Origin: Endomychus coccineus
Lineage: Eukaryota; Arthropoda; Insecta; Coleoptera; Endomychidae
Length of the DNA stretch: 64,000 nt
Reading direction: 5' to 3'
NCBI GenBank assembly: GCA_958510875.1
Contig: OY294070.1
Coordinates: 7,254,001 to 7,318,000, forward strand
Shown here one piece after another: positions 34,501-57,057 of this stretch. The notes under the pieces were generated by a model. The model had not been told where the DNA came from. It saw nothing but the letters and a program-made list of their open reading frames with translations, and ran no database searches. The translations under genes and the position numbers were made by a program. Numbering within the stretch: position 1 is the first letter of the stretch; every line of letters starts with the position of its first letter.

Positions 34501-37500
34501 GAGGTGCTGCTGGGATGTAAAGTAGCTCTTGGCATGGAATAGAAAACCAAGTTTTTGTGAAGCGCTTTTCGCAATGGACCTCAAGTGATCATTCCGTGAG
34601 AAGGTGCTATTGGTGGTGATCTCGAGCATGGACATATAAGACCTTAAAGGAATAGATGTACCTGACATAATCATATTAGGGATTGTGGGATCCGCCTCCC
34701 TGGAGAAGATGCAAGCTTGAGTTTTGTTGCATTAAACTTTACTACGCAGCCTTTCATGATGCCCTCTTAATAGACGAGGTTAATCTGCACGCCATGTCGT
34801 TAGGGAGCCATTGCAGATAAGTCTGTAGACCGCCGTTATTGCGAAATTCCTCATCATCATTGACAGCGCCGTCAATGCTGCAGTCGGTGAACTCTGCCTT
34901 GTGGATGTAACTAAGGAAGAGTCCCTGTATTATGTCCAGAAGCTTTTACACCATACGAGAACTCCATGACTGAGTCTTGGGATAATAAAAGCTGAGTAGA
35001 TCCACATCAACTACTTAAGTCCCAAACGCCACTTTATGCCAAAAGGTCAACATAGAATTTTGGCACCTAGTCTCCAGTTGCTTCTGCGATAGTAGTTTTT
35101 TGTTCAGAGTGACTCCCAGATACTTCACCGGAAAAGTCAACTGATTACCCTCTTCTTCAGAGGCCCGATTTTGTACCTTCTGGAGAAGATGATAATGGTA
35201 GTTTTCTCCGGCTGAATTGAGAGTTTGTTCTTTCTATACCAGACTTCTGTAATTATCAGGCCTGTTGAACAAGCTCCTGCAAGGTACTCTCGTAGGAGAG
35301 TATGGCGATGTCATCCGCATAACCTACGACCTTGATTTCAGCACGGTTTAATCTTACTAGTAGCTCGTCCATGATCAAACTCCATAAAAGGGGGGGATAG
35401 TACCCTCCCTGTGGACACCCTTTTGATACCAACCACGTCAAGGGAGTTCATAATCCACCCTATTACCTCTCGTGGGATATCATGTCTCTCCGCTGCTTGG
35501 TAATAGAACACCTAGAGGTCTTCTTAATGACACCCTCTATGTCCAAGAGGCATCAATTCAGACTCCCTTCCACTTCGGCTGCTGCTCCATAAAGCCAACA
35601 GCCGAGTGGAGGGCCGTCTCGACAGATACGCTTATGTGATAAGCATGCTGTTCCTCGTGAAGAGGGTAATGCTGCACTAGACCATACAAACAGAGGTATG
35701 AAGTAGCATTGATCACGTTACAAAAAGTGAGACACTGAATCGTTTGTAAATTTTACTATAGAAAAACCACCCATAATTGCATCATTTTTGGCTTACAATT
35801 ACAAAATATTTGGCATTCAAATATTCGATCAATCAATAATTATTATATTCTCAAATTTTTCTTACTACAATCACTCTTATTTTGCTGGATCGTAAGTCAA
35901 TTTGATTTAGTGGCAAATACACACAACGTCAAAAGTCTTGGACCACCTATATATCAAATGATTCGATTAAGCCCGATTATTTTTCTTACTGTGGTAAAAA
36001 GTAACATGTATTTAAGGTATAAAAAAAGATACGTGTGGCACTCGGGGACTGCCGCGGTAAAGCTGTTGCATAGCATTTTTTCTCAACTTATGCAATTATA
36101 ATTATTTATTTTTTTAAATTTATGCAGTATTTTTTTTTTCTTTGATATTTTAATTCAAGTTTTTTCTTTGATAATAATTCAAGTTACTTTTGAGCGTGGT
36201 GACTGATGAGAAAACAATTTTTTTTCTTTTATTGAATAAATGAGAAGTTAATATCGTTTAAAATATTTTTATTATCTTACAATACATGTAGGTTATTCAG
36301 GAATTTGTTATCATTGAAACTATAGGTTTATGGTAACTGAATAACTGAAATAAGAGACATAAGTTTGAGACTTGATATCCTCTAAATATCTGGAAAATAC
36401 CGCGTCAATGGTGGTCCCATATTTTGTTGTGGATTCTTGTGGATCATTATTCATTTTCAAATTCAATTTTTCCGAAAGAAAAGTTGTCAACCGCTCTGAT
36501 TTTTTATCAGCGAAGTCGATGTTGAAATCGCCAGCCAAGATAAGTGGAAATTTATTACCATTTGTACCAAGTATTTTCGACCCTTCTTCAGTGTACTCCA
36601 GTAAAGTGCGATGAATAAAATGCTCTACCTCGTCCAATTTTGGATTCGGAGAAATGTAAATTGCTACCATGACTATGTGTAGGCCATTTCTAAGTTTGCA
36701 TAAGCACGCACAAATATCTCCAACAAATGAGCGCCTAACATTAACATCGCTAACGTGTGCAATATGTATTTCAATATTCGGAGTTATAATATTAGTAACA
36801 TTATTATTATTTTGGTAAATAGCTACCCCACCTTTTGGAACAGTATCTCGTTTGAATTGAACAATACAATTGAAATTAGGTATTTCAATCGGATTATCAT
36901 GCGCCATGCAAGTTTCGGTAAGAAGTAACACATTTGTTTGTCTCGTAACTGAATCTTGTAAATCGTATTTGTGACTATTTAGACTTTGGCAATTGAAAGT
37001 CATTATTGAAATGCCATTTCTATTACTAATGAAATCTAAGACACTTTGAGCTGTCGTCTGAACACTATTTAAAGGCAGTCTTTTGAATTTTTGCAACAAA
37101 GATGCAGTCGATACAGCTTGCCTTCGATTATTATAAAACTTGAATGTAGAATTATCGTTTTTTGTCGTGATATACAATTTTTCAATATTAGTCACCCGAG
37201 AGAGCGCAACATAAACGAGTTCCTGTTATTTTTCGTTACGGAATTTCTTGATTCGGTCGTCGCGCTCAAAGCCCGCGATAAAAGCTATATGCAATATATG
37301 CAATAGCTTAATAGAAACAGGTACTCTCAGGTCTCTGCTACGCGCGTCTAACGTATAAACTCTAACTGACGCGTAGCGAGCTCCTAGAGGCATATGTCAA
37401 AATGATTTCGTTCGTAGCTAATTACAGAGGACGTCTGGAGTTCATGCAATTATGTTTTTAGATAATTCGAACCTTCTAGTTTCGATAGGCCACGTGAAAA

Positions 37501-40500
37501 TCCCGGAGTCTAAAGCGCTAGAGTGTTATAACATTCGTATAAAATAGCGAAATTTCTCACTTTTAGAAACTTCAAATTAATTAATTTGACACATGTTAGG
37601 TGTTTAGGTCTTACATTATTTTTCGTTACGGAATTTCTTGATTCGGTCGCCGCGCTCAAAGCCCGCGATAAAAGCTATATGCAATAGCTTAAAAGACAAA
37701 AAAAGACATGTCAATAATGAATCCTGACTTTATTATCAATGTTTTGACAGCGGTGGCAGTGAAAGCATATTCAGCCAAGTGACTAGTGTATTAATTTCTT
37801 TTGATTTTTTGGATTATCATGCCTGGTCGTGAAATTTCTGCGTTTAATCGAGCAAGAATTACTGCTTTACACGATGGAGGGCACTCTAATCATCAGATCT
37901 CGGAAATGTTGGGCATTCCTAGAGCATCTGTTGTGCAAATAGTTCACAGGTACCAAGAATTCGAAACAGTGGAAAACTGACCACGTAGTGGATGTCCTCG
38001 AGTGTCTAACGAAAGGGAAGATCGTTATTTGGTGCAATATGCTCGCAGACACTACACAGCTTCAGCTTCAGTTCTCAGAAGCCACTTTCAGCATACGTTT
38101 CGTCGTGCTATATCGACACCCACAGTTCGAAGAAGACACCATCGTGCAAATTTACGGGCTAGAAGACCATTACGGGTCCCCACTCAACTTCCAAAACATC
38201 GTGCAGGCCCGTCTCCGATGGGCGCTAGAACACACGGTTTGGCTTTTGCAGCAGTGGATGTGGGTGTTATTCACAGACGAAACCAGAATTGGACTGGTGA
38301 GTGATGACAATCGGCAAAGAGTCTGGAGATAACCAGGTCGTCAACAGCGACTTAATTTTCCCCGGGAAGTTGCTTCCTATCAAGGGGGTACTGTAATGTT
38401 TTGGGAGGAATAATGTTTCACCGCCGCATCCCATTAATTCACATTCCACAGAATATGACCAGCCAAATTTACGTCGAACAGGCTATTGCGCCCATTATCA
38501 ATAGATTGGATTGGCCAGCCAACTCGCCGGATATGAATCCGATTGAAAACATGTGGGATTACATAAGTAGAGCCATTCATAATTGAATCAACCCACCTCA
38601 GACTGCAGATGAGTTAGTCGTCGCGGCGGTAGAGGAATGGAACAATATTCCACAAGACACTATAAACCGCTTGATTATTTCAATGCACAGACGTGTCAAC
38701 ATGTTATTACAACGTGGAGGAGGTCATACCGACTATTAGTCAGTGTACAACATGTTGCATTACTTTTTTTATTCAATAATTTTTTTCAACAAATTCATAC
38801 ATTTCTTACTTTTCAATTTTCTAATTATCCCAGTTTGTGTAAAATAATCCTTTCACAAGAAATAGATTGAACAAACAATATACTTTGATAGATATCTTTT
38901 GTTTTTCTAACAAAACATTTCATTAACAAGACTTTTGACGTTTAGTGTAGTTAATCAGTTGGAAAATGTGCTTTTTCTTTTCTGTCACTTCAAACACTTA
39001 TGTTGCATAAGTATTAGTCAACCTTGCTTATAGGTCGTACTGGAGTAAAAATAGATGTTATTTACGTAAAATATGTTTAGTATAATATTTCCGGAACCTC
39101 AACCGCGGTTAGGAAGTCTCACGTTATCTACGATTTAATTTTGGTTTCTAAGAATGTTCAATTTCCGGACTGACAACGTATTCCACGATGTTTGAATCGT
39201 CATTTCAAGCGGGAAGTTTTTGAAATATTGCCTTATTGTTTGTGACAGGTGACGCTATCCGGGTCAAACATTTTCCGGTACAAGCAGTACTCGTGCTTCA
39301 GGCATGTTGGATCCTCGAAATATGCGACTTAAATTGAACTTTTTTTATGGACATTTGGGACCCGATATTTGCTTTCTAAACAAGGACTTTTTTCACTAAC
39401 GATGTACGAATCTTTGCAGGCTGAAGAATAAATGCATAGATAAGAAGTAATGTTCACAGCTGGAGGTATAACTGAAGAAAATACTGTAGCACATACTGTA
39501 CTATGGCAGGGTATCACTTTATTCTGTCAAGCTATCGGATAATAATGAGCATACATCCATCATATGGGGAGAACTTTTCGATATCGCAATTCTACGTAAC
39601 TTGCCTTGTGTAATATCTCCAGCTTCGCCATCATTCCCCTCGTTCCGAGAACGATTCCTGATGTGCCAATCCGACACCCTAGTCATAAATCTGATTTAGA
39701 TTCACGTCCTGCGGCGAGGTTAAGAATAAATTTGTAATTTCTTCAACGGAGATTCAATTAAAATTGATGGAGTAGCTAATTCAGATTATTACGAAACGAT
39801 AATTCTTGAAATATATTTTATAGATTATATACCCAAAAATTAGAATATATAGCCGAAAAGATTTGTACTGGATCATTCACGGTAGATGTACGTTTACGGA
39901 GAACTGCTGAACATAGAGTATTGAACTCTGACTATAAACATAAATATGACGTCATCAACAAAAGGGTTGAAGCAGGGACGATGTTTACGACATTACCATT
40001 TAGTCCTAATCACCGTTGTTGGTTTCTACATAGCGGATTCGAGCTCGCGCAACTAGGCAGAATGCGGCGCGCGCTCTTTGTCGGCTGATGCAAAAGACGG
40101 CATGATCGTAGCGACGCTACTGGGCCTATTCGTCGACTAGTAAAGTTTCGAGCGGTAATTGATAAGATCTCGAACCTATAACGATTGCTATAATAAAAGC
40201 AAAGGTGGCACGAAAAGTGAGACATGTGTTTCTAAATGATAAAGTTAGATTCCAAATGTTGGGGAATTTAGAGCTAAAAAACCTAATTGATGCCGGTCCA
40301 AAATTGGGATCTGCATGAGAATTTGTTGTTGAGGAAAGCAATCCAGACCTATGGGCAGTCGAAACATCAATGCATTCCAGATATGTGAGTCTAGCTTTCC
40401 ACATGCACCGAAAAAATGATCCTACTAAACATAGCACATATTTCGATGATATAAACTTGCTAAACGTGGAATTATTCTTGAATTCAGAGTGTTATATGAA

Positions 40501-46500: not shown

Positions 46501-49500
46501 AATGTCTTAATATGAATATGCGTTTGGAAGAAACAGAAGTTTTAATACGATGTCGCGTAAAGAAGTAATCGATCGTTAACATGTTTACTGTCATTAGCAA
46601 TACAAATACAGCACTTTTTAATTTCAATTTTTAAAGAAACGGTTAAAAATTAAAAAAATAATGTCTTAATATGAATATGCGTTTGGAAGAAAGTCATTAG
46701 TCATTAGCAATTCAAATAAAGCACTTTTTAATTGCCGCAGAATTAAAAAATGTTGATTGCTTCTTGAACACATCTCGTACAATCCTCATATCTTCCAACG
46801 GCCCACATTTAAAAAAGTACAAGACATGGGCAGATAATAATATTTTGGCAAGTCGTTGACCGACAAATTTTAACCACCTAAAATCCCTCCAAACGTACTC
46901 GTCCGTCTGCACACAACGATTCGATATTATTTCAGTGGAAAACGATCACCTGCTCGATGATTTGCTGCGGTTGTTCTCAACCGACTTCCGTCGTCGAAAT
47001 GTCGAAGGAAGACGGCATCGTTAGCGAGTATACCACGTCGAGACAAAACGTACGCGTCGCTGGCATTCATCCGATTGATTCGACCATCGCTTTAACAAGC
47101 CATCTTCCTCTCTACCCTCCCGGAAGGATAATTCACGTTGTACGACACCATCCTACAAAAGGAGAGTAAGTATTAAATTGTTTTTTTGTTCCTGCATAAC
47201 AATTTGGAACAGTGGCTTGTGTTGGCGCGTTTATACGATTTTGTCTATTTCGATTTGAATATACAGGCTGTTCCGACAATTTGACGGATTTGACTGGTTT
47301 AATATGAATGTACAGACTGTTATTTTTTCATTAATTTTATTATACAGGTATTCTCAATTCTTTCATTTTTAAACTATAGCTATTGTATTCGAATATACAG
47401 GGTGCTACAAAATTTTTAAAACAATTTCCTCTCGTTTAATTTGAATATATAGATCGCTCCAAGAAGTTTTAAACGATTTGGTTTGTTTAATTCGAATATA
47501 AAGGTTTTGTCTTGTTTCATTCGAAAATGCAGAATTTTCCGACAATTTTTATACGATTTCTTATAGTTATATAGGGTGAGTCAGTTTTTTGTAGACAAAC
47601 TGCAACAGGAGATAGAACAAGTGTTTTCAAGAAGAAAAGTTCCTATAAACATATGTCGTAGAAGGCTTCGTTTTCGAGATACAGGGTGTTGAAATTGAAA
47701 AAAAAATCTCGTTTTTTGCGAATATCTCCGGAACCGTTTATCGTACAAAAAACAGCTTTTGTAAGCATTTTCTACTCATAGTAAGCTTTGTTCTGTGCCA
47801 TAAAAAAAAATTTTTACTCTCAATTGGTGAAGATTTTGAAGCGGTAGTGGGTGTTTTTCTCCCCAACTTCTACGCCACTGGAAAAAGTACGGTTTTGAGA
47901 CAACCATTTGAACCGCCAATGTTTTTTACACAAAAAAGGTACTCCTGGTCATAAGCTCTAAAGTTGACCGTTTTCGAGAAAATCAACTTTTATGTTGAAA
48001 AACATGGTCAATTCTTACTAATTAAACAAAATTTATTCAAACGTTAGAACAAGTAACAAAACCAAAGGATTGACCATGTTTTTCAACATAAAAGTTGATT
48101 TTTCTCGAAAACGGTCAACTTCAGAGCTTATGACCAAGAGTACCTTTTTCGTGAAGAAAACATTGACGGTTCAAATGGTTGTCTCAAAACCGTACTTTTT
48201 CCAGTAGCGTAGAAGTTGGGGAGGAAAACACCCACTACCCCTTCAAAATCTTCACCAATTATGACTAAAAAAATTTTTTTTTGCCGCACAGAACATAGCT
48301 TACTATGAGTAGAAAATGCTCACAAAATCTGTTTTCTGTACGATAAACGGTTCCGGAGATATTCGCAAAAAACGAAATTTTTTTTCAATTTCAACACCCT
48401 ATATTTCGAAAACAAAGCCTTCTACGACATATGTTTATAAGAACTTTTCTCCTTAAAAACATCTGTTCTATCTCCTGTTGAAGTTTGTCTCCAAAAAACT
48501 GACTCACCCTGTATAGTCGATTTTGAGCTATTGTTGGTACTGGAGAATACTGTTATATCCTATTCAAAAATATAATAGAATCCATAGGAACGCTTTTAGA
48601 AATTGTCAATAGTTATGTCAATTAACTAAGTCCTTGAACGTCACCTCGTTATCAATCATTATTGATCATTCCCAAAATTAATATTTCACGGTAATTGAAC
48701 TTCAAATTGGTACATTAAGTAGTATTAACACCAATTATTCGAATTAAGATACAATGTGATTGATATTAATGAACATTTTTAGAGGCAAATTCAAATCTTT
48801 CTCACATCAAGTTCCTATAAAATAAATAACATATTGTCTCGTAATATATGGAAAATTAGGTAAATAGGTAAGTAACATAATTGAGGAACAGCTTGTATAT
48901 ATTTCACTCATGGTCATGCTTTATTCAAAATTAAGTCTGAACCTATAATTCATTGATGCCTGGAATACATTATTGATTAATAATTTTATTTGTTACTAAT
49001 TTCAGACAAAAATATGATAAAAGATGGAGGTAAATAGTAAAAATGTAACGTACTTAGAGTGTTCGTTGCATGAAAAAGTGACGTACCCCCTTAGTAAAAT
49101 CCACTTTGTGTAAATTAACAGAATAATTCACAATATTACCGGTACAAAATTAGGAAAAGCATGCTTGAATTAATTAGATCCTAGTGTGCTATGTAATCAT
49201 ATAAAAACAGATGAGGTGAAACAATGTCTGCGCACTCTAGATCTTTTATTCGGTCAGCGACATATTACTAGGGCCCCAGTGTGATGATATTAATATAATA
49301 ATATATTATATTCTTATTGGTTGAGGAAAAACGATGTAATAGATTCAAATAATCCTTCTTTCAACTACACTGGCCTCCATAAAATGCTAACCATTCGAAT
49401 GTTTTATGTTCGCTCGGTAATTATCCCTTTATTGCGTTTTTTGTAATTTTCAGTCGTTCGGTTGGTATTTAACCAACCGGAAGCGGTTTAATCACCTGTT

Positions 49501-52500
49501 TTAATGGCTCATATAGCAACCGATTCAAGACTGACGAAATTAACGCTACTTGATAGAGCAATGTCCTCGTCCTCCGAGTCAAAGATAGGATTCTACATAA
49601 TTTGATTCGTTTGAGAGTATTATTTTCCCATATAATACAGAATATTTAGTACCCAATTTGTTCTAATTTGAAATTAATGGACAAAATGTACACTTACTGC
49701 GGTTCCACTACACGAGAATCTTGTTCTGTTATTGTTGTTACCATGAAATCTTTCAACTGGACAGCCGATATTCATTATCTTTACGAAAACTAAACATTTG
49801 AATTTTTGGCCCATTATTGTAATTTCTCTTGAAGCCCAGAACACAAAAATGGGGTAAGGACCAACATAAACATTCACTTAGGAAGCCATTTTGCAACACA
49901 CCTTATTCAGTCATAACACTCTTATACACGTTTATTTCCCGGTAAAAATACGTACGAATCGCACGAGGACACCTTACACATTTTTTGCGTTTTGAGACAA
50001 AACTATGGGTTGTATGAAAAAATGTTTAAACAAAAGTTGTTGGCAAAGCTAATACGCGATTTTTGGTTCTGGTCCGATGTCGATTCGAGGTCGTGGGCCC
50101 AAGATAGGGCCCATTTAGTGTGTTCTTTAGCACATTGAAAAATTGAATATATGTCAAAGAGTTTGTTTTTTTCATATTCATATATTTATTAATCATATTT
50201 TTTTTGTTTAAATATTGCCGCTATAAATGAAATGACGCGCTAATTTTTTATTATGAAATTCGTTATAACTTGGAATTATGAACGAATCTCCGTATGCTGT
50301 TTCAAACTTAAATAGCAGATGTATTTCTTTGTAATTTGCTCCAAGACTTTTGTCGATAGGCCCAAAATTGGGCCCCATAGAGGCCCAAACATATTTATTA
50401 GAATAGTTTCATTTCTACTCAACTCAAATCGATCTGCTTGAATTTAAAATACTCTAATAGAACCTAGGATTTGGATTCCGTGGAAAATGTCTAACCTCAA
50501 AAAATTTGAACTTTTCGGTGATTCAAAAATTTTCTAAATGGCGCCAAAGTTATGTCTTTGGACCAAAATGTTTGAATTTTAAATATTAGGTGCGAAACAA
50601 TGAAATCTTTCGAATGAATTTGGTTTTAGATCGATAACATGAGTATTTCGTCTGAAATTCGCAAAATACGGATTTTTCAAAATGGCCAATTTTGACGCCA
50701 AAAAATGAGGTAGGTCAAAATACCAGAAACCAAAAGAAGAAAAATAAAAATATTGTCTTTTCAAAGCAACAGAATATGAAAAAAACAAAAACTCTTTGAC
50801 ATATACTCAATTTTTCAATGTGCTAAAAAACACACTAAATGGGCTATCTTAGGCCCACGACCTCGAATCGACATCGGACCAGAGCCAAAAATCGCGTATT
50901 AACTAAGCCAACAACTTTTGTTTAAACATTTTTTCATACAACTCATAGTTTTGTCTCAAAACGCAAAAAAATTGTAAGGTGTCGTCGTGCGATTCGTACG
51001 TATTTTTACCTGGAAATAAACGCGTATAAGAGTGTTATGACTGAATAAAGTGTGTTGCAAAATGACTTCCTAAGTGAATGTTTATGTTGGTTCTTACCCC
51101 ATTTTTGAGGCACTATGTGGCACTATGTCGCACCGAATCTGTAATCTGTAGCGGGATCCAGTGGTGGAGATCACGTGACCACTCTGTAACGAATTCTAGG
51201 ATTTTACAACTCGTTTACTCTGTCTATAAGATATCTATGGGCGTGACCTGAAATGGAGAGGCATCGGTCATTGTTTCATACTTATACTAATTATATAACT
51301 TATATACAGTGGGAATTGCAATGCATAATAATTGTTCACGAACGTTGAAAAATCCCAACTCATCCTGTAAACCTTTTTTGTGTTTTTGTATCCATTCAGA
51401 ATTCAGAATTTACTTGAGAACATTCTGTGCGTTACCTCAACTATAAAACGTTACACTATAAATAAGGAACAATCACCCATATCCACTGAAAATACTGTTC
51501 AAGTACTGAGACCATTCAACCATCACCAAAATAAACTAAATTTAAAAAAAATGTGCCTGTTCAAATGCTATTTGGAATTGATAGAGGGTATACAGGGTGA
51601 GTCAGTTTTAAGAAGAAAAGTTCCTATAAACATATGTCGCAGAAGGCTTCGTTTTCGAGATACAGGGTGGTGTTGAAATTGAAAACAAAATTTCGTTTTT
51701 TTGTGAATATCTTCTAAACCGTTTATCATACAGAAAACAGCTTTTGTAAGCATTTTCTACTCATAGTAAACTATGTTCTGTGCGATAAAAAAAATTTTTT
51801 TTAGTCATAATTGGTGAAGATTTTGAAGGGGTAGTGGGTGTTTTTCTCCCCAACTTCTACGCCACTGGAAAAAGTACGATTTTGAGACAACCATTCAAAG
51901 CGCCGATGTTTTCTACACAAAAAAGGTACTCTTGGTCATAAGCTCTAAAGTTGACCGTTTTCGAAAAAAATCAACTTTTATGTTGAAAAACATGGTCGAT
52001 TCTTTGAAATAAAATTTATTTTTTACTAATTAAACAAAATTTATTTAAACGTTAGAACAAGTAACAAAACCAAAAAATTGACCATGTTTTTCAACATAAA
52101 AGTTGATTTTTCTCGAAAACGGTCAACTTTAAAGCTTATGACCAAGAGTACCTCTTTGTGTAGAAATCATTGGCGGTTCAAATGAGAGACTCAAAACAGT
52201 AATTTTTCCAGTGGCGTAGAAGTTGGGGAGAAAAACACCCACGACCCCTTCAAAATCTTAACCAATTATGACAAAAAAAAAATTTTTATCGCACAAAACT
52301 TGGCTCACTATGAGTAGAAAATGTTTATATAATCTGTTTTCTTTACAATAAACGGTTCCGGAGATATTCGCAAAAAACGAAATTTTTTTTTCAATTTCAA
52401 CACCCGGTTACTCGAAAACGAAGTCTTCTACGAGATATGTTTATGAGAACTTTTCTTCTTAAAAACATCTGTTCTATCTCCTGTTGGAGTTTGTCTACAA

Positions 52501-52919
52501 AAAACTGACTCACCCTGTATAAACGATTCACCCTCAGCTGGAGATAAATATCAATTCATTAAGGAACGATAATGTTTCTCGCGAAATTGTGAGCTGTAAT
52601 TAAAATGTCTTCGCTAACGCCAAACTATTCAACTCGATAATTATTTTTATTGCAGTTCCCTCTGTTTGAAATGCTTGTCGTAAAACGTCATTCTATGATA
52701 CCGGCTGCATCTTGTAATTTTGTTTCTCTCTACAGACAAGCGCTCTCTAAACGCGATCCGGTCTACCAGGCTCTATGGGCCGAGAATACGGATTTCGATC
52801 AAGTACTCATCTCGCCAGTAATGGTACAGGATCATATGCCCGACAGGGTGTTGAATGCGTTGCAAAAGGTTAGTCCGACGGTGGCAGCCTATCAACATGA
52901 TTCCGTTCTTAAATATTGA
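19460..52919 (+). CDS. inaE: Diacylglycerol lipase alpha (sn-1-specific), ten coding exons
   Basis: Exons: 19460-19554, 41453-41664, 42345-42446, 42598-42772, 42834-43053, 43115-43386, 43509-43668, 43881-44324, 46936-47165, 52736-52919. All junctions are GT-AG and keep frame; the predicted protein is about 697 residues. The enzyme cleaves the sn-1 ester of diacylglycerol to give 2-monoacylglycerol (2-AG in vertebrates); the Drosophila orthologue inaE acts in phototransduction. Four membrane helices lie within residues 20-160, then a cytosolic lipase domain: nucleophile Ser480 in GHSLGAG, Asp532 in GKDVVPRIG, His627 in PPGRIIHVV. The N-terminal MPGLVAFRRRW favours the alpha type. The long Pro-rich tail of vertebrate alpha is absent if the stop at 52919 is used; a donor at 52869 could instead lead to a longer isoform. 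Intron 1 is about 21.9 kb and full of repeats. Confidence 0.92.
19577..20720. repeat. Satellite 1: about 93-base tandem repeat with trimeric higher-order pattern
   Basis: About twelve units of 91-98 bases, each with TCGTGACAAAC, CTGTA, ATTATTAAACCT, and GACACAAAATTATGAT-AGC-TTGATAAT. Variants follow in a fixed order: CAAATATCCC unit, ACATAGATCC unit, TCAAATATGCC unit. That triplet starts at about 19670, 19950 and 20236, so the higher-order period is about 280-286 bases. The third triplet is scrambled at its end (about 20427). The array begins only 22 bases after the exon 1 donor. Confidence 0.9.
20721..22255. other. Intron 1 sequence, nothing recognised
   Basis: A+T-rich DNA with no transposon motif, exon or repeat partner that I could see. 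Short frames at 20843-21106 and 21191-21373 look like chance. Confidence 0.45.
22256..23260 (+). mobile_element. LINE family C reverse-transcriptase relic
   Basis: Plus-strand pieces in order: SAGVPHGSLLGPLIFLLIVS (22426), SVRTFEELSVFANTMAVQFH and CKANSLILNEEKTKL (22540-22650), CSKFLGIYLDNIFSWCEQVE (22730), DPRQIFFYNLVLFEYKKHN (22940), and the C-terminal NSLPVDVKAKTKTNQFKKS near 23115-23170. Many frame breaks. The Y/F-A-D-D box has been lost in a degraded part near 22510. Confidence 0.75.
23261..23540. other. A+T-rich spacer
   Basis: Nothing recognised. Confidence 0.4.
23541..24005 (+). mobile_element. LINE family C thumb and C-terminus
   Basis: Frame 23543-23863 encodes LWGNSINHQQVFVAQNRVIR, then GKRDSCRPIFVLNNLMTFP and IYIYECLLTIRNN, the thumb of the family C polymerase. 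A following frame gives IGIKLFNHLCQKIRTLELRK and a C-terminal HAFYTVDEYM (23860-23975). It is a 5'-truncated copy. Confidence 0.75.
24065..25323. mobile_element. Giant palindromic (foldback) element, about 1.26 kb
   Basis: The left end TAGTCTAGGAGCCAGAGCGA and the right end are complementary, and the pairing continues through most of both halves (for example 24100-24330 with 25060-25290, and 24360-24560 with 24820-25030). The unpaired centre, roughly 24640-24720, is small. No transposase frame is present. A run of 13 G at 24769-24781 lies in the right half. The element resembles a very large miniature inverted-repeat transposon. Confidence 0.85.
25324..26194. other. Intron 1 sequence, nothing recognised
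   Basis: No coding motif or repeat found. Confidence 0.45.
26195..27312 (+). pseudogene. Gypsy (Ty3-type) LTR retroelement pol fragment: RNase H end and integrase
   Basis: Plus-strand frames give LHLPHKPGEDIRSRYTF near 26310 (the ALSRLPHKPG-like end of RNase H), GDRVIVSRSLRQKVLDAIHA near 26543 (start of integrase), LIMIDAFSRLPVIKIVPS near 26840 (first catalytic Asp of the integrase core), SNGLSERTVRSFKKLW near 26995 (catalytic Glu region) and the C-terminal LIRFRDYHSSKPKWLKGTIS near 27135. Several frames alternate and there are stops, so it is an old broken copy. No LTRs were seen on either side. Confidence 0.75.
27313..27894. repeat. Unassigned stretch with a twice-repeated motif
   Basis: GTTACTCGGGTGGTTTTTGG (about 27618) and GTAACTCGGGGGTTTTTGGA (about 27859) are near-identical and about 240 bases apart. 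The plus frame near the first reads LLGWFLGSLITILKSNWSND. I cannot assign it to a known element. Confidence 0.4.
27895..28250 (+). pseudogene. Mariner transposase C-terminal relic with right terminus
   Basis: The plus strand reads AAHRSVVAIAKLHELRYELV, CDFYLSPNL, WFDGKRIGSKDEVIAEIDAH and LKGIEKLEKRWMKCIGLQRE, the last third of an insect mariner transposase. The last catalytic Asp block, normally SPDLAPCD, reads SRFGPCD here, so it is inactive. A terminus-like TTTCTCAGGGACTTTTCGCA follows the stop. Confidence 0.75.
28251..28739. other. A+T-rich intron sequence
   Basis: Nothing recognised. Confidence 0.45.
28740..30769 (-). mobile_element. LINE family B: reverse transcriptase, thumb and RNase H
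   Basis: From high to low coordinate on the minus strand: SQGGVLSPLPWNLVVDGLL (30765-30710), catalytic box LEYADDIVAMVQGKYNF (about 30670-30610), GLNISPHKVIIVAF (30550), thumb YWLYNMVVKPAIAYASLVWW (30320), LLGLPPLQLVIQEEAGLGAF (30180), RNase H YTDGSKTEKGAGEGV (29930), then the cysteine motif LTCRLCGKDTETVTHILCKC near 29270. The polymerase Asp pair and the first RNase H Asp are intact, but the frames are interrupted. The 3' part (28740-29060) is probably untranslated. This is the most complete family B copy in the window. Confidence 0.82.
30770..31131. mobile_element. Foldback element inserted at the LINE edge
   Basis: Left arm 30770-30913 (TTAGGGAGCCTTGAAAAAAG ...) pairs with right arm 30988-31131, including GGCCAATAATGAAATAATT and its complement near 31070-31092. 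The loop is about 75 bases and A+T-rich. It has no coding capacity. Its left arm abuts the broken reverse transcriptase of the LINE. Confidence 0.75.
31132..31990. repeat. Inverted copies of the family B 3' region
   Basis: Segment 31170-31305 (GGGGCACGTTTTGTGCCTGA ... GGTACGCCCTGA) matches the complement of 28800-28945. Segment 31645-31785 (CATAGTAGACCATGAG ... CCTCCCCATAAAGGGTT) matches the complement of 28955-29060. Their order is not that of a simple inversion, so at least two events are needed. Between and around them is A+T-rich DNA. Confidence 0.65.
31991..32168 (-). mobile_element. LINE family A 3' end
   Basis: Same tail as at 12785 and 60540; the minus frame contains IERRSCETLCQVRSFPMPIT. 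It runs straight into an (AAT)n run at 32165-32181. Confidence 0.65.
32352..33804 (-). mobile_element. Mariner-like element, 1453 bases, both termini present
   Basis: Termini CTGGGTTCCCCATAATAGAC (32352) and its complement ending at 33804 are flanked by TA at 32350-32351 and 33805-33806. The element contains one nearly continuous transposase frame on the minus strand. A (CCTAA)4 run lies at 33449-33468 upstream of the transposase. Confidence 0.85.
32600..33470 (-). pseudogene. Mariner-like transposase with one stop and one frameshift
   Basis: Minus frame from about 33430: SVQNLKKPGRRRTVRTPENI (end of first HTH and linker), SKGSLDRILQRNL (second HTH), LLMTDEANFDLNG (first Asp), NK-stop-NFRYWSNENP (TAG at 33047-33049, same frame continues), GVGSFAIIGPYFFE, LLFQQDGATAHTARNSMR (second Asp), WPSRSPDLTAPDFFLWGYLK (third Asp). 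A frameshift near 32640 separates the final TIEELKAKIRKEV-like codons. All three acidic residues remain, so the copy is young compared with its neighbours, but it is not active as read. Confidence 0.82.
34216..34830 (-). mobile_element. LINE family A thumb region
   Basis: The minus frame 34674-34384 encodes GTSIPLRSYMSMLEITTN, SIAKSASQKLGFLFHAKSYF and QQHLIIYKA, matching the copy at 61259-60981. Upstream in a second frame (about 34735-34680) is FNATKTQACIFSREADPTIP. Right-hand polymerase parts are missing. Confidence 0.75.
34831..35720 (-). mobile_element. LINE family B reverse-transcriptase relic
   Basis: The minus strand has GCPQGGYYPPLLWSLIMDEL (35430-35370) and VVGYADDIAILSYESTLQEL (35335-35265), the fingers and the catalytic Y-A-D-D box; then KNKLSIQPEKTTIIIFSRR-like codons near 35200. 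The part above 35460 holds degraded palm codons. It is broken by stops and truncated before the RNase H. Confidence 0.75.
36031..37692 (-). mobile_element. Helentron copy 2 (inserted in Tc1)
   Basis: Right edge (5' end on the minus strand) is AAGCTATTGCATATAGCTTT; left edge is ...GAGTGCCACACGT. Both edges carry a related motif, GCTATxGCA(A/T)TAGCTTTA followed by CGCGG, the subterminal repeat layout of Helentrons and their non-autonomous relatives. Just inside 37225 the minus strand ends a PIF1-type helicase (VYVALSR, with a 2-base shift) that runs on into the endonuclease frame. A second copy of the 5' terminal block lies at 37222-37315, so the element itself is rearranged; Rep and most of the helicase are missing. 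Confidence 0.75.
36320..37195 (-). CDS. Helentron endonuclease (EEP-fold) C-terminal domain, 291 codons
   Basis: The open frame starts inside helicase codons (VTNIEKLYITTKND is the usual PIF1-like end), so the ATG is not a natural start. Exonuclease-endonuclease-phosphatase motifs follow: MTFNCQSLNSHKYDLQ (metal-binding Asn), VLLLTETCMAHD (Glu), GGVAIYQNN, HIVMVAIYISPNPKL, LILAGDFNIDFADKK (catalytic Asp-x-Asn) and STTKYGTTIDAVFSRYLED. The final S-x-H catalytic His, present in copy 1 as YFSYHKPIV, is lost here: an 8-base duplication shifts the frame to YFSYSVTINL-stop. In Helentrons this domain is thought to help DNA cleavage during rolling-circle transposition. Confidence 0.8.
   Translation of the reverse strand: MTNIEKLYITTKNDNSTFKFYNNRRQAVSTASLLQKFKRLPLNSVQTTAQSVLDFISNRNGISIMTFNCQSLNSHKYDLQDSVTRQTNVLLLTETCMAHDNPIEIPNFNCIVQFKRDTVPKGGVAIYQNNNNVTNIITPNIEIHIAHVSDVNVRRSFVGDICACLCKLRNGLHIVMVAIYISPNPKLDEVEHFIHRTLLEYTEEGSKILGTNGNKFPLILAGDFNIDFADKKSERLTTFLSEKLNLKMNNDPQESTTKYGTTIDAVFSRYLEDIKSQTYVSYFSYSVTINL
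37819..38739 (+). pseudogene. Tc1-like transposase with the central catalytic segment deleted
   Basis: Starts MPGREISAFNRARITALHDG (first HTH, 37819), stop at 37978-37980, then VSNEREDRYLVQYARRHYTA (38002), LFTDETRIGLVSDDNRQRVW (38268, first catalytic Asp), LGGIMFHRRIPLIHIPQNMT (38402), then a direct jump from IYVEQAIAPIINRL to DWPANSPDMNPIENMWDY (38508, last acidic block), and RRVNMLLQRGGGHTDY-stop at 38739. The segment with the second Asp (FQDDNARPH-like in the family) is missing. Several frame changes. Inactive. Confidence 0.85.
38950..40139. other. Intron 1 sequence, nothing recognised
   Basis: No transposon motif or exon. The region is less A+T-rich around 40030-40120, but I could not assign it. 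Confidence 0.4.
40140..40790 (+). pseudogene. Double jelly-roll capsid-like relic (Polinton-type, tentative)
   Basis: The plus strand has conserved-looking blocks: HVFLNDKVRFQMLGNLELKN (40223), DLWAVETSMHSRYVSLAFHM (40347), FDDINLLNVELFLNSECY (40443) and, after a decayed gap, DCSKQNDAIKSSTVGVKLEM (40632) with NFPKNTSA (40697) in a shifted frame. These resemble insect-genome proteins annotated as double jelly-roll-like, which relate to capsid proteins of Polinton-like elements. Stops and frameshifts show that it is dead. No polymerase, integrase or terminal repeats of a Polinton were seen near it. Recognition is from memory of the pattern, so treat it as tentative. Confidence 0.45.
40791..41452. 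other. End of lipase intron 1
   Basis: Contains a repeated palindromic motif (see 40938-41046) and ends at the acceptor TTTTTTTTGCAG. Otherwise unremarkable. Confidence 0.5.
40938..41046. repeat. Two copies of a palindrome-bearing motif, 74 bases apart
   Basis: GCGATCATAGTTCGTGAACT (40938) and GCGATCATAGTTCGTGGACT (41012) start two near-identical 35-base blocks. Each includes the self-complementary core CATAGTTCGTGAACTATG or a one-base variant. Confidence 0.7.
41453..41664 (+). CDS. inaE: Lipase exon 2
   Basis: Acceptor GCAG (41449-41452), donor GTATGT at 41665. Completes the first membrane helix, then helix 2 (LLLWGFILGYIAILILSMAI) and the conserved MRGSILDPSPRSSMQYVLYF, which matches the loop of diacylglycerol lipase alpha (MRGGIL...RDSMQYVLY in vertebrates). 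Confidence 0.92.
41702..41796. repeat. Short inverted repeat in intron 2
   Basis: AAGGCCTCTCTAGTCTAGAT with ATCGATTAGTAA pairs with TTACTGATCGATCTAGACTA followed by ACATACCTT, around a loop of about 30 bases. It stands about 40 bases after the exon 2 donor. It may be a small foldback element. Confidence 0.7.
41797..42344. other. Rest of lipase intron 2
   Basis: No further feature seen; ends at acceptor TTTCATTTCAG. Confidence 0.5.
42345..42446 (+). CDS. inaE: Lipase exon 3
   Basis: Encodes the third membrane helix (VVMFIEAGWLSAGVAWLII) and KESPIEKAKESVL. Acceptor AG at 42343-42344, donor GTAAGT at 42447; both codons split one base in. Confidence 0.9.
42598..42772 (+). CDS. inaE: Lipase exon 4
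   Basis: Encodes the fourth membrane helix (GLVICNWCILLSVLITIWC) and a basic cytosolic stretch (SWVKMKQYQKSMREAE). Donor GTAAAA at 42773 is weaker than consensus. The Arg codon is split AG|G. Confidence 0.9.
42834..43053 (+). CDS. inaE: Lipase exon 5
   Basis: Encodes YQDTWQNRCQYLLCCSS and the conserved FTDFFRDLDVVPSDVVVGFV, typical of the start of the cytosolic part of diacylglycerol lipase alpha. Donor GTAGGA at 43054. Confidence 0.92.
43115..43386 (+). CDS. inaE: Lipase exon 6
   Basis: Encodes NDTYEFLSGVPIGPRTQFL, YAHFALQAYGWPMYLMQDKL and a Cys-rich CPGLSCCCCIPC, followed by IIDDNCC. Acceptor is the unusual TTGGGATAG (43114), chosen because it keeps frame and conservation. Donor GTGAGT. 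Confidence 0.9.
43509..43668 (+). CDS. inaE: Lipase exon 7
   Basis: Encodes YHVDIGETPFFIALDYDMRK and VVISIRGTLSMK, the strand before the catalytic serine region (RGTLS is near invariant in the family). Donor GTGAGT at 43669. Confidence 0.93.
43881..44324 (+). CDS. inaE: Lipase exon 8 (catalytic Ser and Asp)
   Basis: Contains HKGMVQAAQYI, the nucleophile elbow VIVGHSLGAGTAGIL with Ser480, SPPGGLLS, and GKDVVPRIGLNQLE with Asp532. The 52-residue spacing between Ser and Asp equals that in the human enzyme (Ser472, Asp524). Confidence 0.95.
44325..44690. other. Start of lipase intron 8
   Basis: A+T-rich; nothing recognised before the satellite. Confidence 0.45.
44691..46735. repeat. Satellite 2: about 160-base tandem repeat with trimeric higher-order pattern
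   Basis: About twelve to thirteen units, each with AATTTCAATTTTCGAAGAAACGC-like start, AATGTCTTAATATGAATA, ATACGAGGTCG-GTCAAGAA and ATGTTTTCTG. Three unit types alternate (CTCTATATGAATATGCAT; GAACAAACATACATTTTT; GGTTGGAAGAAACTGAAG), giving a period of about 483 bases: the first type starts at about 44882, 45366 and 45850. The right end (46330-46735) is disordered, with shortened units. Open frames of about 60-70 codons on the minus strand are produced by the repeat. Confidence 0.92.
46936..47165 (+). CDS. inaE: Lipase exon 9 (catalytic His)
   Basis: Encodes WKTITCSMICCGCSQPT, IDSTIALTSHLPLYPPGRII and HVVRHHP with His627. Acceptor ATTTCAG, donor GTAAGT at 47166; Glu codon split GA|A. Confidence 0.93.
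47240..47569. repeat. Degenerate tandem array of TATACAGG-type units
   Basis: Six or so units of about 55-75 bases start with (T)TCGAATATACAGG-like sequence (47255, 47315, 47345, 47390, 47443, 47500) and end with a T-rich stretch and ACGATTT. The array leads directly into palindromic element 1, whose terminus has the same TA-CAGGGTG form. Confidence 0.6.
47572..48511. mobile_element. Palindromic element 1, 940 bases
   Basis: Outer ends (T/C)AGGGTGAGTCAGTTTTTTG, flanked by TA at 47570-47571 and 48512-48513. Arms of about 440 bases pair almost throughout (for example GAAGGCTTCGTTTTCGAGAT with its complement near 48415), around a 60-base A+T centre at about 48015-48070. An inner terminus TA-CAGGGTGTTGAAATTG sits about 110 bases in (47680), mirrored at about 48401. 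No coding potential; presumably moved by a Tc1/mariner-type transposase. Confidence 0.85.
48514..49844. other. Intron 9 sequence, nothing recognised
   Basis: A+T-rich, no exon or transposon motif seen. A 67-codon frame at 49674-49877 overlaps the edge of the next element and looks like chance. Confidence 0.45.
49845..51113. mobile_element. Element with about 345-base inverted repeats and unique centre
   Basis: Left arm from 49845 (ACAAAAATGGGGTAAGGACC) to about 50190 pairs with 50765-51113, including CGAATCGACATCGGACCAGA and TTCGTACGTATTTTTACC. The centre of about 580 bases (50190-50765) is not palindromic and encodes no recognisable protein. Terminal arms this long suggest a foldback or non-autonomous DNA transposon. 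No target duplication was clear. Confidence 0.8.
51114..51592. other. Intron 9 sequence
   Basis: Nothing recognised between the two palindromic elements. Confidence 0.45.
51593..52517. mobile_element. Palindromic element 2, 925 bases
   Basis: Same outer ends as element 1 (CAGGGTGAGTCAGTTTT), with TA at 51591-51592 and 52518-52519. The left outer module is shortened by about 30 bases. Core and centre match element 1. The same inner TA-CAGGGTG boundary lies at about 51661. Confidence 0.85.
52736..52919 (+). CDS. inaE: Lipase exon 10 (last recognised coding exon)
   Basis: Acceptor TCTCTCTACAG (52735). Encodes EQALSKRDPVYQALWAENTD, FDQVLISPVMVQDHMPDRVL and NALQK, the conserved end of the lipase domain. 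Reading on gives VSPTVAAYQHDSVLKY and TGA at 52917-52919. A GTTAGT donor at 52869, exactly in phase after NALQK, offers an alternative splice to further exons. An earlier acceptor at 52654 would hit a stop within ten codons. Confidence 0.85.
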
Positions 52920-53177
52920 TGTCGCATGCGTGTTATTCTGTGTGCGCATTTTTTATTGTACATACATAGCATAGATTAAGGTAGCTCGCATTCTAGTCAC
53001 TCACTACTATGACACTATTCTGTAGTGTTATATTATACTTGTTCTGTGGTCGTATCGTAACTCGTAACAATTGAAATACGTTGGCACGATATTTATGTTT
53101 ACGGTGGTGTTTTATCATTAGAATAGAATAGTTGTATGTTCGTGATTTGTATGCTAGTGAATAGATAGTTTTACATT

Positions 53178-53183
53178 AATAAA
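53178..53183 (+). terminator. Candidate polyadenylation signal of the short lipase transcript
   Basis: AATAAA about 260 bases after the TGA at 52919, before the next transposon. It fits a terminal exon ending with the read-through stop. Confidence 0.45.
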
Positions 53184-53677
53184 CCGCCCATACTGATGAA
53201 TAATAATGGTTATAACTGTGTGAATATTATTATCAGTGATATTTCAAATTGAGGTAAGTCTCATTGTGACCAATTCAAATTGATGCTTTTGATGACATTT
53301 ACATAAAAAAAGGACGCGACGCGATTTTGGTAGATCTAGTTGATTTTATTTTTTTAACATAGCTCAATCGGAAGCTCTGAATTATATACTGAATCGATTA
53401 CAGTATCTTCATTTCAGTTTCTATTATTCAACTTAAATGTAATACAGTCTGTTTCAGTTTTTTCGTTCATAAACGATAGAACTTCTAAAAATAATAGGGG
53501 TCTTTCATATAAAATTTTTCTCTAAATCACTTCGTTTTCGAGATACAGGGGTGTTGAAATTGAAAAAAAAAATTGGTTTTTTTGCGAATATCTCCGGAAT
53601 CGTTCATCGTACAGAAAACCGCTTTTGTAAGCAATCTCTACTCATACTAAGATATGTTTTGGGCGATACAAAATTTT

Positions 53678-54733
53678 TAAGCTATTGCATATAGCTTTTA
53701 TCGCGGGCTTTGAGCGCGGCGACCGAATCAAGAAAAAAAAACAAAAGACAAATACCGTAACGAAAATCTGAAAAAACATAAAACAAATACCGTAACGAAA
53801 TATCCTAAGACCCACCACCCCGCCTACCATGTAGCTGGGCCGAGCTTAAAATTGTCGAAATGTTAACTTTGAACCTTAAAAAGGTCGTGATAGCCCCAAA
53901 GTGGGTCGAAAACTGTTTCGAATTGGTTAATTTTCGATAAATCGAATGACGTTCACGTGAGAAGCGCGTAGCTCGCGAGTTAGAAAAGTGCAAATTTACG
54001 GTACATAGAACGTCGCATGCGGTTTTCGCTCCATGTCGTTAGTTTATGAACGGGGCCAACTAAATAGCATAGTCTCGGGCCCCAAAATGTCGATTAAATA
54101 GGAAAATTTAATTAAAACACTTTGAGGTATTCTCAGCTGTCACCTACTAGCATCTGACATGCGACGTACGAAAGGGAATTTTCTAGCTACTTAAATATAC
54201 CGATAGCGGGTAAAAGCTAGCGGCCCATAGTCCAAAATACTTTATTACAACTGGCGCCAGCCGCACGGGGTTCGAAACGGCCCCAAATTAACGAAATAGA
54301 GGTAAAATGTATAAACTCTAACTTACACGCAGCGAGCTCCTCGAGGATATGTCAAAATTTTTACGTTCGTAGCTAATTACATAAGACGCCAGATCATGCA
54401 ATTGTGGTTTTATACAATTCGAACCTTCTAATTTCGATAGGCCACGTGAAAATCCAGGAGCCGGAAGCGCTATCGAGATGTGAACGTTAAAACTTTCGTA
54501 TAAAATTGTGTTTACAAGTCAACTGACACTTGTCACCATAGATAACTCTACTACCGGTAGTAGAGTTATCTATGCTTGTTACAGAATACTCTTCATAGAG
54601 ATCAAGATGATACTCTTTTTACTCATAATTCGTGAAGATTTTGAAGGGGTAGTGGATGTTTTTCTGCCCAACTTTTTCCAGTGGCGTAGTGCTATGCAAT
54701 AGCTTTACCGCGGCAGTCCCGAGTGCCACACGT
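53678..54733 (+). mobile_element. Helentron copy 3 (non-autonomous), inserted in palindromic element 3
   Basis: 5' edge TTAAGCTATTGCATATAGCT, 3' edge GAGTGCCACACGT. Internal block 54300-54510 (CGTAGCTAATTACATAAGAC, GATAGGCCACGTGAAAATCC) matches 37360-37560 of copy 2. No protein-coding capacity. Contains a perfect 38-base palindrome (54537-54574) and, just before the 3' edge (about 54610-54685), a fragment of the palindromic element core. Confidence 0.75.
54537..54574. repeat. Perfect 38-base palindrome
   Basis: CATAGATAACTCTACTACC is followed immediately by its exact reverse complement with no loop. It lies about 160 bases from the Helentron 3' edge. Stem-loops near the 3' end act as termination signals in rolling-circle elements, but this one is farther in than usual. 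Confidence 0.9.
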
Positions 54734-55438
54734 TTAATTTTTTTTTAATTAATAATTGGTGAAGATTTTGAAGGGGTAGTGGTTGTTTTTCTCCCCAACT
54801 TCTACGCCACTGGAAAAAGTACGGTTTTGAGAGGCCCATTTGAACCGCCAATGTTTTCTACACAAAAAAGGTACTGATCATAAGCTCTAAAGTTGACCGT
54901 TTTCGAGAAAAATTAACTTTTATGTTGAAAAACATGGTCAATTTTTTGGTTTTGTTACTTGTTTGAAGAAATTTCGTTTAATTGATAAAAAATAAATTTT
55001 ATTTCAAAGAATTGACAATGTTTTTCAACATAAAAGTTGATTTTTCTCGAAGCCGGCCAAGTTTGGAGCTTATGGCCAAGAGTACCTTTTTTGTGTAAAA
55101 AACATTGGCGGTTCAAATGGACATCTCAAAACTGGCGTAGAAGTTGGGGAGAAAAACAACCACTACCCAAAAAAATCTTCAAAATCTTCACCAATTATGA
55201 ATAAAAAAAAAAATTATCGCACAAAACATAGCTTACTATGAGTAGAGATTGCTCACAAAAGTTGTTTTCTGTACGATGAACGGTTCCGGAGATATTCGCA
55301 AAAAACAATTTTTTTTTTCAATTTCAACACCCTGTATCTCGAAAACGAAGTGATTCAGAGAAAAATTCCATATGAAAGACCCCTATTATTTTTAGCAGTT
55401 TGCCGAAGTTATGGACGAAAAAACTGAACCATCCTGTA

Positions 55439-56425
55439 TAACTGAAATAACAAAAAAATTATATTCAATCATGTGTAATGTGATGTAATGACTCAAGTAT
55501 TGTGGGAATGACTCAAGTATTGTGGAGGAAATAGATCGAATATAGATCTATCTTTAAATATAAATTGTGAGATTAACGTAAAGTTTTCCTAAATGTTACA
55601 TAAAAATATTCGTAGATTGTGATACTACTTGCCTATTGGATAAGTTCTTTACAACTTCGTTTAATGCCACTACTAACTTTTATTTATTTATTACTTTATT
55701 TTCATCTTTATTGCCATAAGGGATTTTTAGGAGTTTTATCAATTCTGAAAAATCCCTGATGGTAATATTATTTTATTATAATTCAGTTATATTATTTATT
55801 GTCCTCCGTCTAGTTTATTTCTTCATTCTCTATTATTTAATATATTTTTTCACAGTTATTCTATGGTTTTATTCATTCATTTTCCTTCCTAATTTTCCTT
55901 TCTCTTATTAATAACAGTCGGTGGAAGTGGCTATTGATTCCTTAAATTTAGTTTAGTTTCTCGACGAAGGCAATAAATGAACATTTTTATCAATATTCAA
56001 AATATTATTTAAAGGACCTTATATTGTTGTTTATGATTTGTTTCAATTTTACCAATATAGAGGTTCAACTTATACAGGCTCATTCACAGTGGATGAGGAA
56101 TTAAACGTTTCGGGAGAACGTTCAGATGATTCCAAGAAAAAAGTTCATGTGAACAAAAATCTTAAAATTTGGACTTCTCTTGACAAAAGTTCCTTTGTTT
56201 TGTTTTGATTGGATGTACCATTTTCAAGTAAACTCAATTTGAAAATTATCTGTCTTCATTGTAGGATGACGCCGAAATTTTTTTTTTTCAGGACTGTGAT
56301 ATTTTTCAATGACTCAAATTTTCCAATAATATGATTCCTAGACTAGATTTACACAAGAAAGGTACTTCTTGTAATTTGACGTAGAGATTTACTGCAAAAT
56401 TTGATGAACCGAAAATTTCAATATA
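55439..56425. other. A+T-rich stretch
   Basis: No exon recognised. CTTATACAGGCTCATTCACA at about 56073 is another isolated mariner-like TA-CAGG terminus. Confidence 0.45.
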
Positions 56426-57057
56426 CAGGATGTTTCATAATATATGCGCAGGACTTCAAGATGTGATAGCTCGTCCAATAATTTGAAAAAAACTTACCTT
56501 CTAAAATGCACATTTTTCGAGATACATTTTTAATTTTGGAATTATGAAGTTAACGTTTGGTTTTGTTACATGTTTTAATGTTCAAATAAATTCTGTTTAA
56601 TTAGTAGAAAAAAAAATTATTTAAAAAAGTTGACCATGTTTTTCAACATAAAAGTTGATTTTTCTCAAAAACGGTCAACTTTAGAGCTTATGACCAAGTA
56701 CCTTTTTAGTGTAGAAAACATTGGCGGTTCAAATTTGCATCTCAAAACCGTACTTTTTCCAGTGGATTAGAAGTAGTGGAGAAAATCACCCATTACACCC
56801 CTTCAAAATCTTCACCAATTAAGACTAAAAAAATTTCTCACAAAACATATTTTACTATGAGTAGAAAATGCTTTCAAAAGCTGTTTTCTGTACGATAAAC
56901 GGTTCCGGAGATATTCGCAAAAAACGAAATTTTTTTTTCAATTTCAATTTTCTCGAAAATTGTGCATTTTAGAAGGTAGGTTAATAGAAACTTTTTTCAT
57001 ATTTTTGGACGAGCTATCACATCCTGAAGTCCTGCGCATATATTATGAAACACCCTG
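56426..57057. mobile_element. Palindromic element 4, 632 bases
   Basis: Ends CAGGATGTTTCATAATATAT and complement, with TA at 56424-56425 and 57058-57059. The outer module (GCGCAGGACTTCA-GATGTGAT) is different again. The right arm shares the long core with elements 1-3 (56620-56940: CAACATAAAAGTTGATTTTT, CTCCGGAACCGTTT-like). The left arm is shortened, so the palindrome is asymmetric. Confidence 0.8.

Follow-up and report, generated by a model that had tools for sequence, protein, structure and literature searches.

Several outer modules on one shared inner repeat: four elements of the Endomychus coccineus genome as derivatives of a long-TIR Tc1/mariner family

Here we describe four related elements, E1 to E4, which lie close together in the window, that is, the whole 64,000-nucleotide stretch of Endomychus coccineus DNA that was analysed. 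They are derivatives of a long-TIR Tc1/mariner family, whose pattern of tips probably arose by recombination between families together with homogenisation of the two arms of each element. Judging from the sequences compared below, the core that they share constitutes no separate element and corresponds to the inner ~330 bp of TIRs of ~570 bp. E1, E2 and E3 are two-TIR, gene-less copies of a family with a DD41D transposase; E4, with a single core arm, derives from the same family by another deletion.

A preliminary description had presented the four as palindromes with a common core. The elements, their long core (~79-90% identity) and the TA outside the ends at all four are confirmed, but palindromy is not shared by all (Table 1). 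While E1 and E2 are near-complete palindromes (self-inverted matches of 956 nt, 89.4% identity, and 873 nt, 84.3%, respectively), the terminal arms of E3 match over 232 nt (89.2%), its left arm being interrupted, and in E4 the inverted repeat comprises only 111 nt (85.6%), with no palindrome through the core. The sequence that interrupts E3 holds a duplicated core piece at 54616-54674, and stretches of it are present again at 37244-37694, up to 100% identical over 61 nt. Likewise, the TA is constant but an initial CAG is not, the first bases of E1 being TAGGGTG, and a core 20-mer quoted as common to all is inexact in the left arms of E2, where it reads GAATATCTTCTAAACCGTTT, and of E3, where it reads GAATATCTCCGGAATCGTTC. 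Among the window elements there are indeed three differing outer modules, one in E1 and E2, one in E3 and one in E4, each placed at both ends. Two other features lie between these elements: an inverted repeat between E1 and E2 (49844-50107 and 50844-51107; 264-nt arms, 95% complementary, spacing 736 nt) that has no match in E1-E4, and, between E2 and E3, an open exon-like stretch at 52742-52870 which, by eye, we take to resemble part of a diacylglycerol lipase.

Table 1. Positions of the four elements and of their parts in the window.
Feature	Position	Strand	Description
E1	47572..48511	.	A-type two-TIR palindromic element, ~940 bp; flanks TATATAGGGTG...CACCCTGTATA
E1 left outer module	47572..47681	+	A type; terminates at TTTTCGAGATA
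E1 left core arm	47682..48012	+	Inner TIR; opens with internal copy of the terminal heptamer CAGGGTG
E1 loop	48013..48072	+	Asymmetric; matches inner TIR end of transposase-bearing C elements
E1 right core arm	48073..48401	-	Inverted
E1 right outer module	48402..48511	-	A type, R form
E2	51593..52517	.	Two-TIR element with A tips; deletion in left outer module
E3	53445..55436	.	B-type two-TIR element, ~2.0 kb owing to inserted/rearranged sequence
E3 left-arm interruption	53679..54740	.	Approximate limits; ~1 kb of other sequence, starts AAGCTATTGCATATAGC
E4	56426..57057	.	Deletion derivative of type C; both ends carry the C outer module, with a single core arm and the loop
E4 right outer module	56947..57057	-	C type; same module as on transposase-bearing elements

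The genome searched comprises 906 Mb in 129 contigs. An exact 20-mer of the E1 outer module (type A) matches it 1013 times (500 forward and 513 reverse; reversed control, 0), and among the first 100 places listed there are 20 forward/reverse pairs within 5 kb, spaced 514-915 bp, and none ~2 kb apart. Loci were sampled with three queries: the E1 core (best 40 scored of 1089 candidates), the outer B module (best 40 scored of 2104) and the outer C module (best 40 scored of 184), each of which gave 30 loci, in a sample biased toward close matches of the queries. At A, B and C ends, all of them occupied sites, TA lies directly outside the heptamer in 107 of 115, and in 100 of those 107 it forms part of TATA. 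The palindromic copies are gene-less, with matching ends and high copy number, as in MITEs and other two-TIR non-autonomous elements. No transposase fragment was found inside the A and B palindromes, the matches at L011, L035, L037 and L049 lying outside them, and an A locus without a second end (L007) carries a fragment, 36-40% identical, ~400 bp past the core. A core 21-mer scanned against viral contigs gave 0 matches. At four loci (L006, L024, L025 and L036), the ends of different CAGGGTG elements adjoin directly, in most cases as CACCCTG-TATA-CAGGGTG, which suggests that TATA-bearing element ends are favoured targets.

The origin of the core is revealed by the type C loci, in several of which core and loop are followed by the end of a transposase gene. 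Pieces of transposase are present in 16 of the 30 (L077 and L081 overlap; L070, at 28% identity, is not counted), and three loci, L093, L094 and L095, were fetched with extra flank. In L093 (1763-4112) and in L095 (1805-4012, ~2.2 kb) the outer C module, core arm and loop stand inverted at both ends, with TIR matches of 577 nt (85.8%) and 564 nt (79.3%) that enclose transposase pieces; L094 is ~2.0 kb, with a shortened left TIR. The coding members seen thus measure ~2.0-2.35 kb, with TIRs of ~565-575 nt in two of the three, each laid out as an outer module of ~110 bp, a second, internal occurrence of the terminal TACAGGGTG, the core (inner TIR, ~330 bp) and the loop. Because outer C module, core and loop flank transposase in L093 and L095, the core is the inner TIR, and the palindromes are gene-less two-TIR copies. 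Coding elements with A, B, D or E ends were not found in the sampled loci. A second core had been suspected in C elements; from its position in L069 and L074 it looks like a 5' noncoding stretch between loop and gene, an explanation that does not account for L067.

The same layout bears on the proposal that the elements grew from the centre by repeated insertion, a core element with CAGGGTG ends (its naked end being TATACAGGGTGTTGAAATTG) having entered the middle TA of a short outer palindrome. The core does open with the terminal heptamer, and by eye the outer ends, if joined, would read GAGATATCTC, a symmetric TA target. Nevertheless, outer module and core together form the TIR of a coding element, and in the lineage with 368-aa frames described below a GATACAG motif is seen by eye ~105 bp from the end, so that the internal repetition of the terminal motif seems to be a regular component of these TIRs. 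Nested insertion is therefore highly improbable, and the idea that an independent core element had entered an outer palindrome was abandoned, since outer module, core and loop make up one long TIR.

The transposase pieces match DUF4817. In a Pfam search, the genome's own piece gives PF16087 above the cutoff and PF01498 below it; two C-terminal pieces searched alone gave no Pfam match, and a PDB search with one piece gave 0 matches. A full-length homologue of 357 aa, P0001, is 89% identical, and its precomputed domains are PF16087, PF01498 and PF13358 (DDE_3). Its residues D158, D249 and D291, which we take to be catalytic on the basis of mariner alignments, leave 41 residues between the last two, a DD41D triad, and the L094 piece has the same 41-residue spacing. 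This spacing, and the Tc3-type helix-turn-helix and DDE_3 domains known through P0001, are those of the Tc1/mariner DD41D elements (rosa/LTIR/VISITOR group). Three homologues among the 120 listed carry an organism name, and all are beetles (Euwallacea, Callosobruchus and Diabrotica). Searching the genome with its own protein (best 150 scored of 15,784 candidates) returned many stop-free frames of 361 or 368 aa, 56-63% identical. The many 361-aa frames (e.g., C3:92183275) score nearly equally, at 56-59% identity to the C-type transposase, and are possibly a recently active lineage. When one 361-aa and one 368-aa frame were read upstream, both elements were found to start TATACAGGGTGTA. In the window itself, transposase fragments lie at 14933-15331 and 32624-33421, respectively 47% and 32-34% identical to the C-type pieces.

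The two-arm elements share more than their arms. The loop of E1 is joined to the right arm at a deletion junction, between AACAAAACCAAA and GGATTGACCATG, and the same loop-to-arm junction, an anchor AACAAGTAACAAAACCAAA followed by ATTGACCATG or a close variant, occurs in 46 of 48 two-arm elements of types A to E; a search of the 48 did not find the anchor in L003 and L085. At this common breakpoint the gene and one copy of the loop are missing. The junction has AAA microhomology, and the deletion there could recur.

Genome-wide, the outer modules fall into six types, A, B, C, D1, D2 and E, of ~109 bp each, all of which meet the core at the same point, where TTTTCGAGATA is followed by CAGGGTGTTGAAATTG or a close form. 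The expectation of one core with many outer types, at least six here, is hence borne out, but the three types first recognised are not unrelated, as had been stated: over ~109 bp the six are 52-88% identical with few gaps, and most align in register. Identities were compared with those of 1000 ungapped block shuffles, after trimming of the terminal heptamer and of the inner end that the modules share. Nine of the 15 pairs (A-B, A-D1, A-D2, B-C, B-D1, B-D2, C-D1, C-D2 and D1-D2) beat the best shuffle, as illustrated by A-B (0.52 against 0.43) and B-C (0.50 against 0.47), while A-C (0.44 against 0.45) and all five E pairs do not. With two gaps A-C reaches 0.55, which equals the best of 20 gapped shuffles; when a few gaps are allowed, the pairs C-E, D1-E and D2-E rise above all 20 shuffles, A-E, like A-C, only equals the best of them, and B-E falls below it. 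If gaps are left free, the A-B and B-C values of 0.52 and 0.50 lie within the shuffled range, the shuffled alignments using ~30 gaps. Unrelatedness of the modules was thus discarded as a candidate, given the register and the shuffles. The E module is a mosaic, 94% identical to D1 in its inner half and 53% in its outer half.

Since the outer modules are homologous, part of the difference between tips could be fast evolution in place, and the main rival to exchange is indeed the rapid divergence of transposase-binding tips. According to it, these would be ordinary subfamilies, in which each tip evolved fast with its transposase and the inner TIR slowly, conversion kept the arms alike, and exchange was limited to rare chimeras. 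This reading is rather unlikely, though it draws on more than the register of the tips. A tree was built from 132 of the 136 core arms found (three untyped and one short arm omitted; the bootstrap is not settled), and in it core lineages mostly follow the outer type, with 13 label changes against a shuffled mean of 64.1 and a minimum of 5. The condition under which the preliminary description would have given way, each outer type on its own diverged core, largely describes the data, the divergence between the cores being slight; the exceptions speak for exchange. Four arms with D1 or D2 tips fall within A core groups (L003, L025 and L051); E2 carries A tips on one C-like and one E/D2-like core arm, neither of which groups with A-left or A-right, and could be a survivor that predates the divergence of the A arms. 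There are also misplaced single arms, namely a C arm with B (L058, weak support), a C arm with E/D2 (L074) and a B arm with C (L057). To these are added two elements with different tips at their ends, L040 (D1/B) and L051 (D1/D2), and the mosaic E module. The small numbers behind these cases include only four D1, three D2 and three E arms in the sample.

Divergence along the arms also departs from what ordinary subfamilies would give. Between the left and right arm consensuses of 21 A and 16 B elements there are 49 type-specific sites, 0 that distinguish left from right in both types, 11 that do so in A only, five in B only and one crossed. The type-specific sites number 39 of 110 in the outer module and 10 of ~325 in the core (Fisher p = 1.6e-17), and the step is abrupt: the last outer one is at column 93 and the next at column 140, A-B divergence halting sharply just before the internal heptamer. 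In 40-bp bins, divergence is 0.36-0.53 and then 0.23 in the tip and 0.03-0.12 in the core, the upper core value (12% between A and B consensus in one bin) favouring subfamilies, and it is 0 in the last 80 bp before the loop with pooled B arms, where the oriented B-left consensus has three changes. The local mutation rate is not the cause of the step, because singletons, mostly post-insertion, are about equally common in tip and core of A and B (outer 1.2-2.1%, core 0.6-2.7%); in C the core has somewhat more of them. Variants that recur in several B copies affect the core (1.8-7.9%) more often than the tip (1.4-1.5%), which is to be expected since those loci were chosen by their tip. A mutation gradient from the outside to the centre was dropped, singleton rates being flat in A and B, and its appearance probably came from the mixing of outer types and arm states.

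The internal TACAGGGTG is an indel hotspot at the step between exchanged and shared parts. In the arms in which anchors were found (47 of 54 A, 39 of 45 B and 16 of 24 C), it is out of register in 10/47, 19/39 and 12/16, and the terminal heptamer in 2/47, 5/39 and 1/16 (Fisher 0.027, 0.0012 and 0.0002), a contrast that may partly reflect selection before insertion, because terminal heptamers had to be intact at transposition. It is also the bin with most indels outside A/T runs (copies with an indel: 14/54 A, 22/45 B, 20/24 C), while the modal length of control core intervals is conserved in 94-100% of the arms in A and B and in 86-95% of those in C. In Sleeping Beauty and Tc3-type IR/DR transposons the transposase site occurs twice in each TIR, once in an outer and once in an inner repeat; the present family may resemble them in this arrangement, the internal heptamer being here a putative site. 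That it would be a working second site of cleavage or synapsis, whose cuts leave indels and make of the 110-bp tip a replaceable cassette, is quite improbable; if true, a non-autonomous palindrome could switch transposase by acquiring two new tips and leaving its body unchanged.

The two ends of an element do tend to change together, as had been proposed, but not without exception. Of the 44 two-arm elements with both ends typed, 42 (A 21, B 16, C 2 and one each of D1, D2 and E) carry one and the same outer type on either side, three with an untyped end and an edge artefact (E/A at L006:3107) having been left out of the 48; the remaining two are the asymmetric L040 and L051. An active end-swapping, in which cruciform or hairpin forms would allow gene conversion to replace both tips at once, draws on these matched ends, on the homogenised arms within types and on L025, which retains both A-like arm states between D2 ends: scored at only five diagnostic sites, one of its arms is A-R (4/5) and the other A-L (3/5, one gap). 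By the same sites, one D1 arm of L003 is A-R at 5/5. We consider this process improbable. Within type A the L and R states are linked between tip and core (19 of 22 L arms score 4-5/5 for L and all 30 R arms favour R), which implies that conversion of the tip only, within an element, is uncommon, and L025 is equally well explained if the core of a D2 element was replaced in one step.

Altogether, we favour recombination between long-TIR Tc1/mariner families, accompanied by homogenisation of the arms. The outermost 110 bp, to which the transposase probably binds, would belong to several old family lineages, whose inner TIRs would have been kept similar by ectopic recombination or conversion, a whole A-like core between the D2 ends of L025 being a possible instance of such exchange. 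Being homologous in inverted orientation, the two arms of each element would homogenise one another, and matching ends would be favoured if the transposase pairs like ends; both ends would then seem to change together, even though single steps may be one-sided, as in L040 and L051. We infer ectopic exchange, arm-to-arm homogenisation and a transposase preference for matched ends; given that cores mostly follow tips, exchange between families would thus be infrequent or ancient, or divergence would in part have taken its place.

Transposons without a gene rely on transposases from elsewhere, and a shared body with many versions of the tip lets a change of helper be tested, symmetric and asymmetric tip forms coexisting here within one genome. 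From a practical perspective, repeat annotation by TIR alone and by body alone would class these copies differently. This particular family was not found in the open-licence literature searched.

The closest structural relatives are the aphid LTIR-DD41D elements. In the parts of the aphid study available, LTIR-like DD40-41D Tc1/mariner elements such as Apismar5.1 measure ~2.3 kb, with TIRs of 460-466 bp and transposases of 351-370 aa whose last two D are separated by 40 or 41 residues, and MITE5.1 of Diuraphis noxia consists of gene-less copies of 790-822 bp with common breakpoints (PMC5490172). They share with the window family the element size, the long TIRs, the D-D spacing and gene-less copies with shared breakpoints, and L093, by the positions and TIR match given above, exceeds the bounds of the LTIR-like clade (TIR > 460 bp, element > 2.3 kb). 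They differ in their terminal sequence (TCACCAATTTAGGG...) and few copies, and those parts of the study report no exchange of outer modules (PMC5490172). As far as the sections consulted describe them, the mariner lineages of Rhodnius prolixus (Rpmar26, Rpmar65) have a TA target, with TIRs that start CAGGGTG in two lineages, and the long-TIR lineage Rpmar49 has one end replaced by a 221-bp copy of the other; nevertheless, they belong to other subfamilies and their TIRs are mostly of 27-57 bp (PMC4678618).

The shell structure, thought at first to be without precedent, has one in Galileo, of the P superfamily. In Drosophila mojavensis, according to the portions of that work seen, one central region occurs with TIRs of three subfamilies, chimeric copies combine two subfamilies, and the authors propose ectopic recombination and conversion (PMC3573991). 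Long TIRs, two-TIR copies, chimeric ends and one centre with several TIR types are common to both families, asymmetric chimeras included, albeit in small numbers here. The families are nonetheless distinct: Galileo is a P element with a 7-bp target duplication and exchanged ends of ~570 bp (PMC3573991), whereas here the transposase is of Tc1/mariner type, TA lies outside the ends, and a 110-bp tip is followed by an internal copy of the terminal motif. The mixing and matching of tips on shared inner ends is therefore a pattern already described, in Galileo, and the window family would extend that observation to the Tc1/mariner superfamily.
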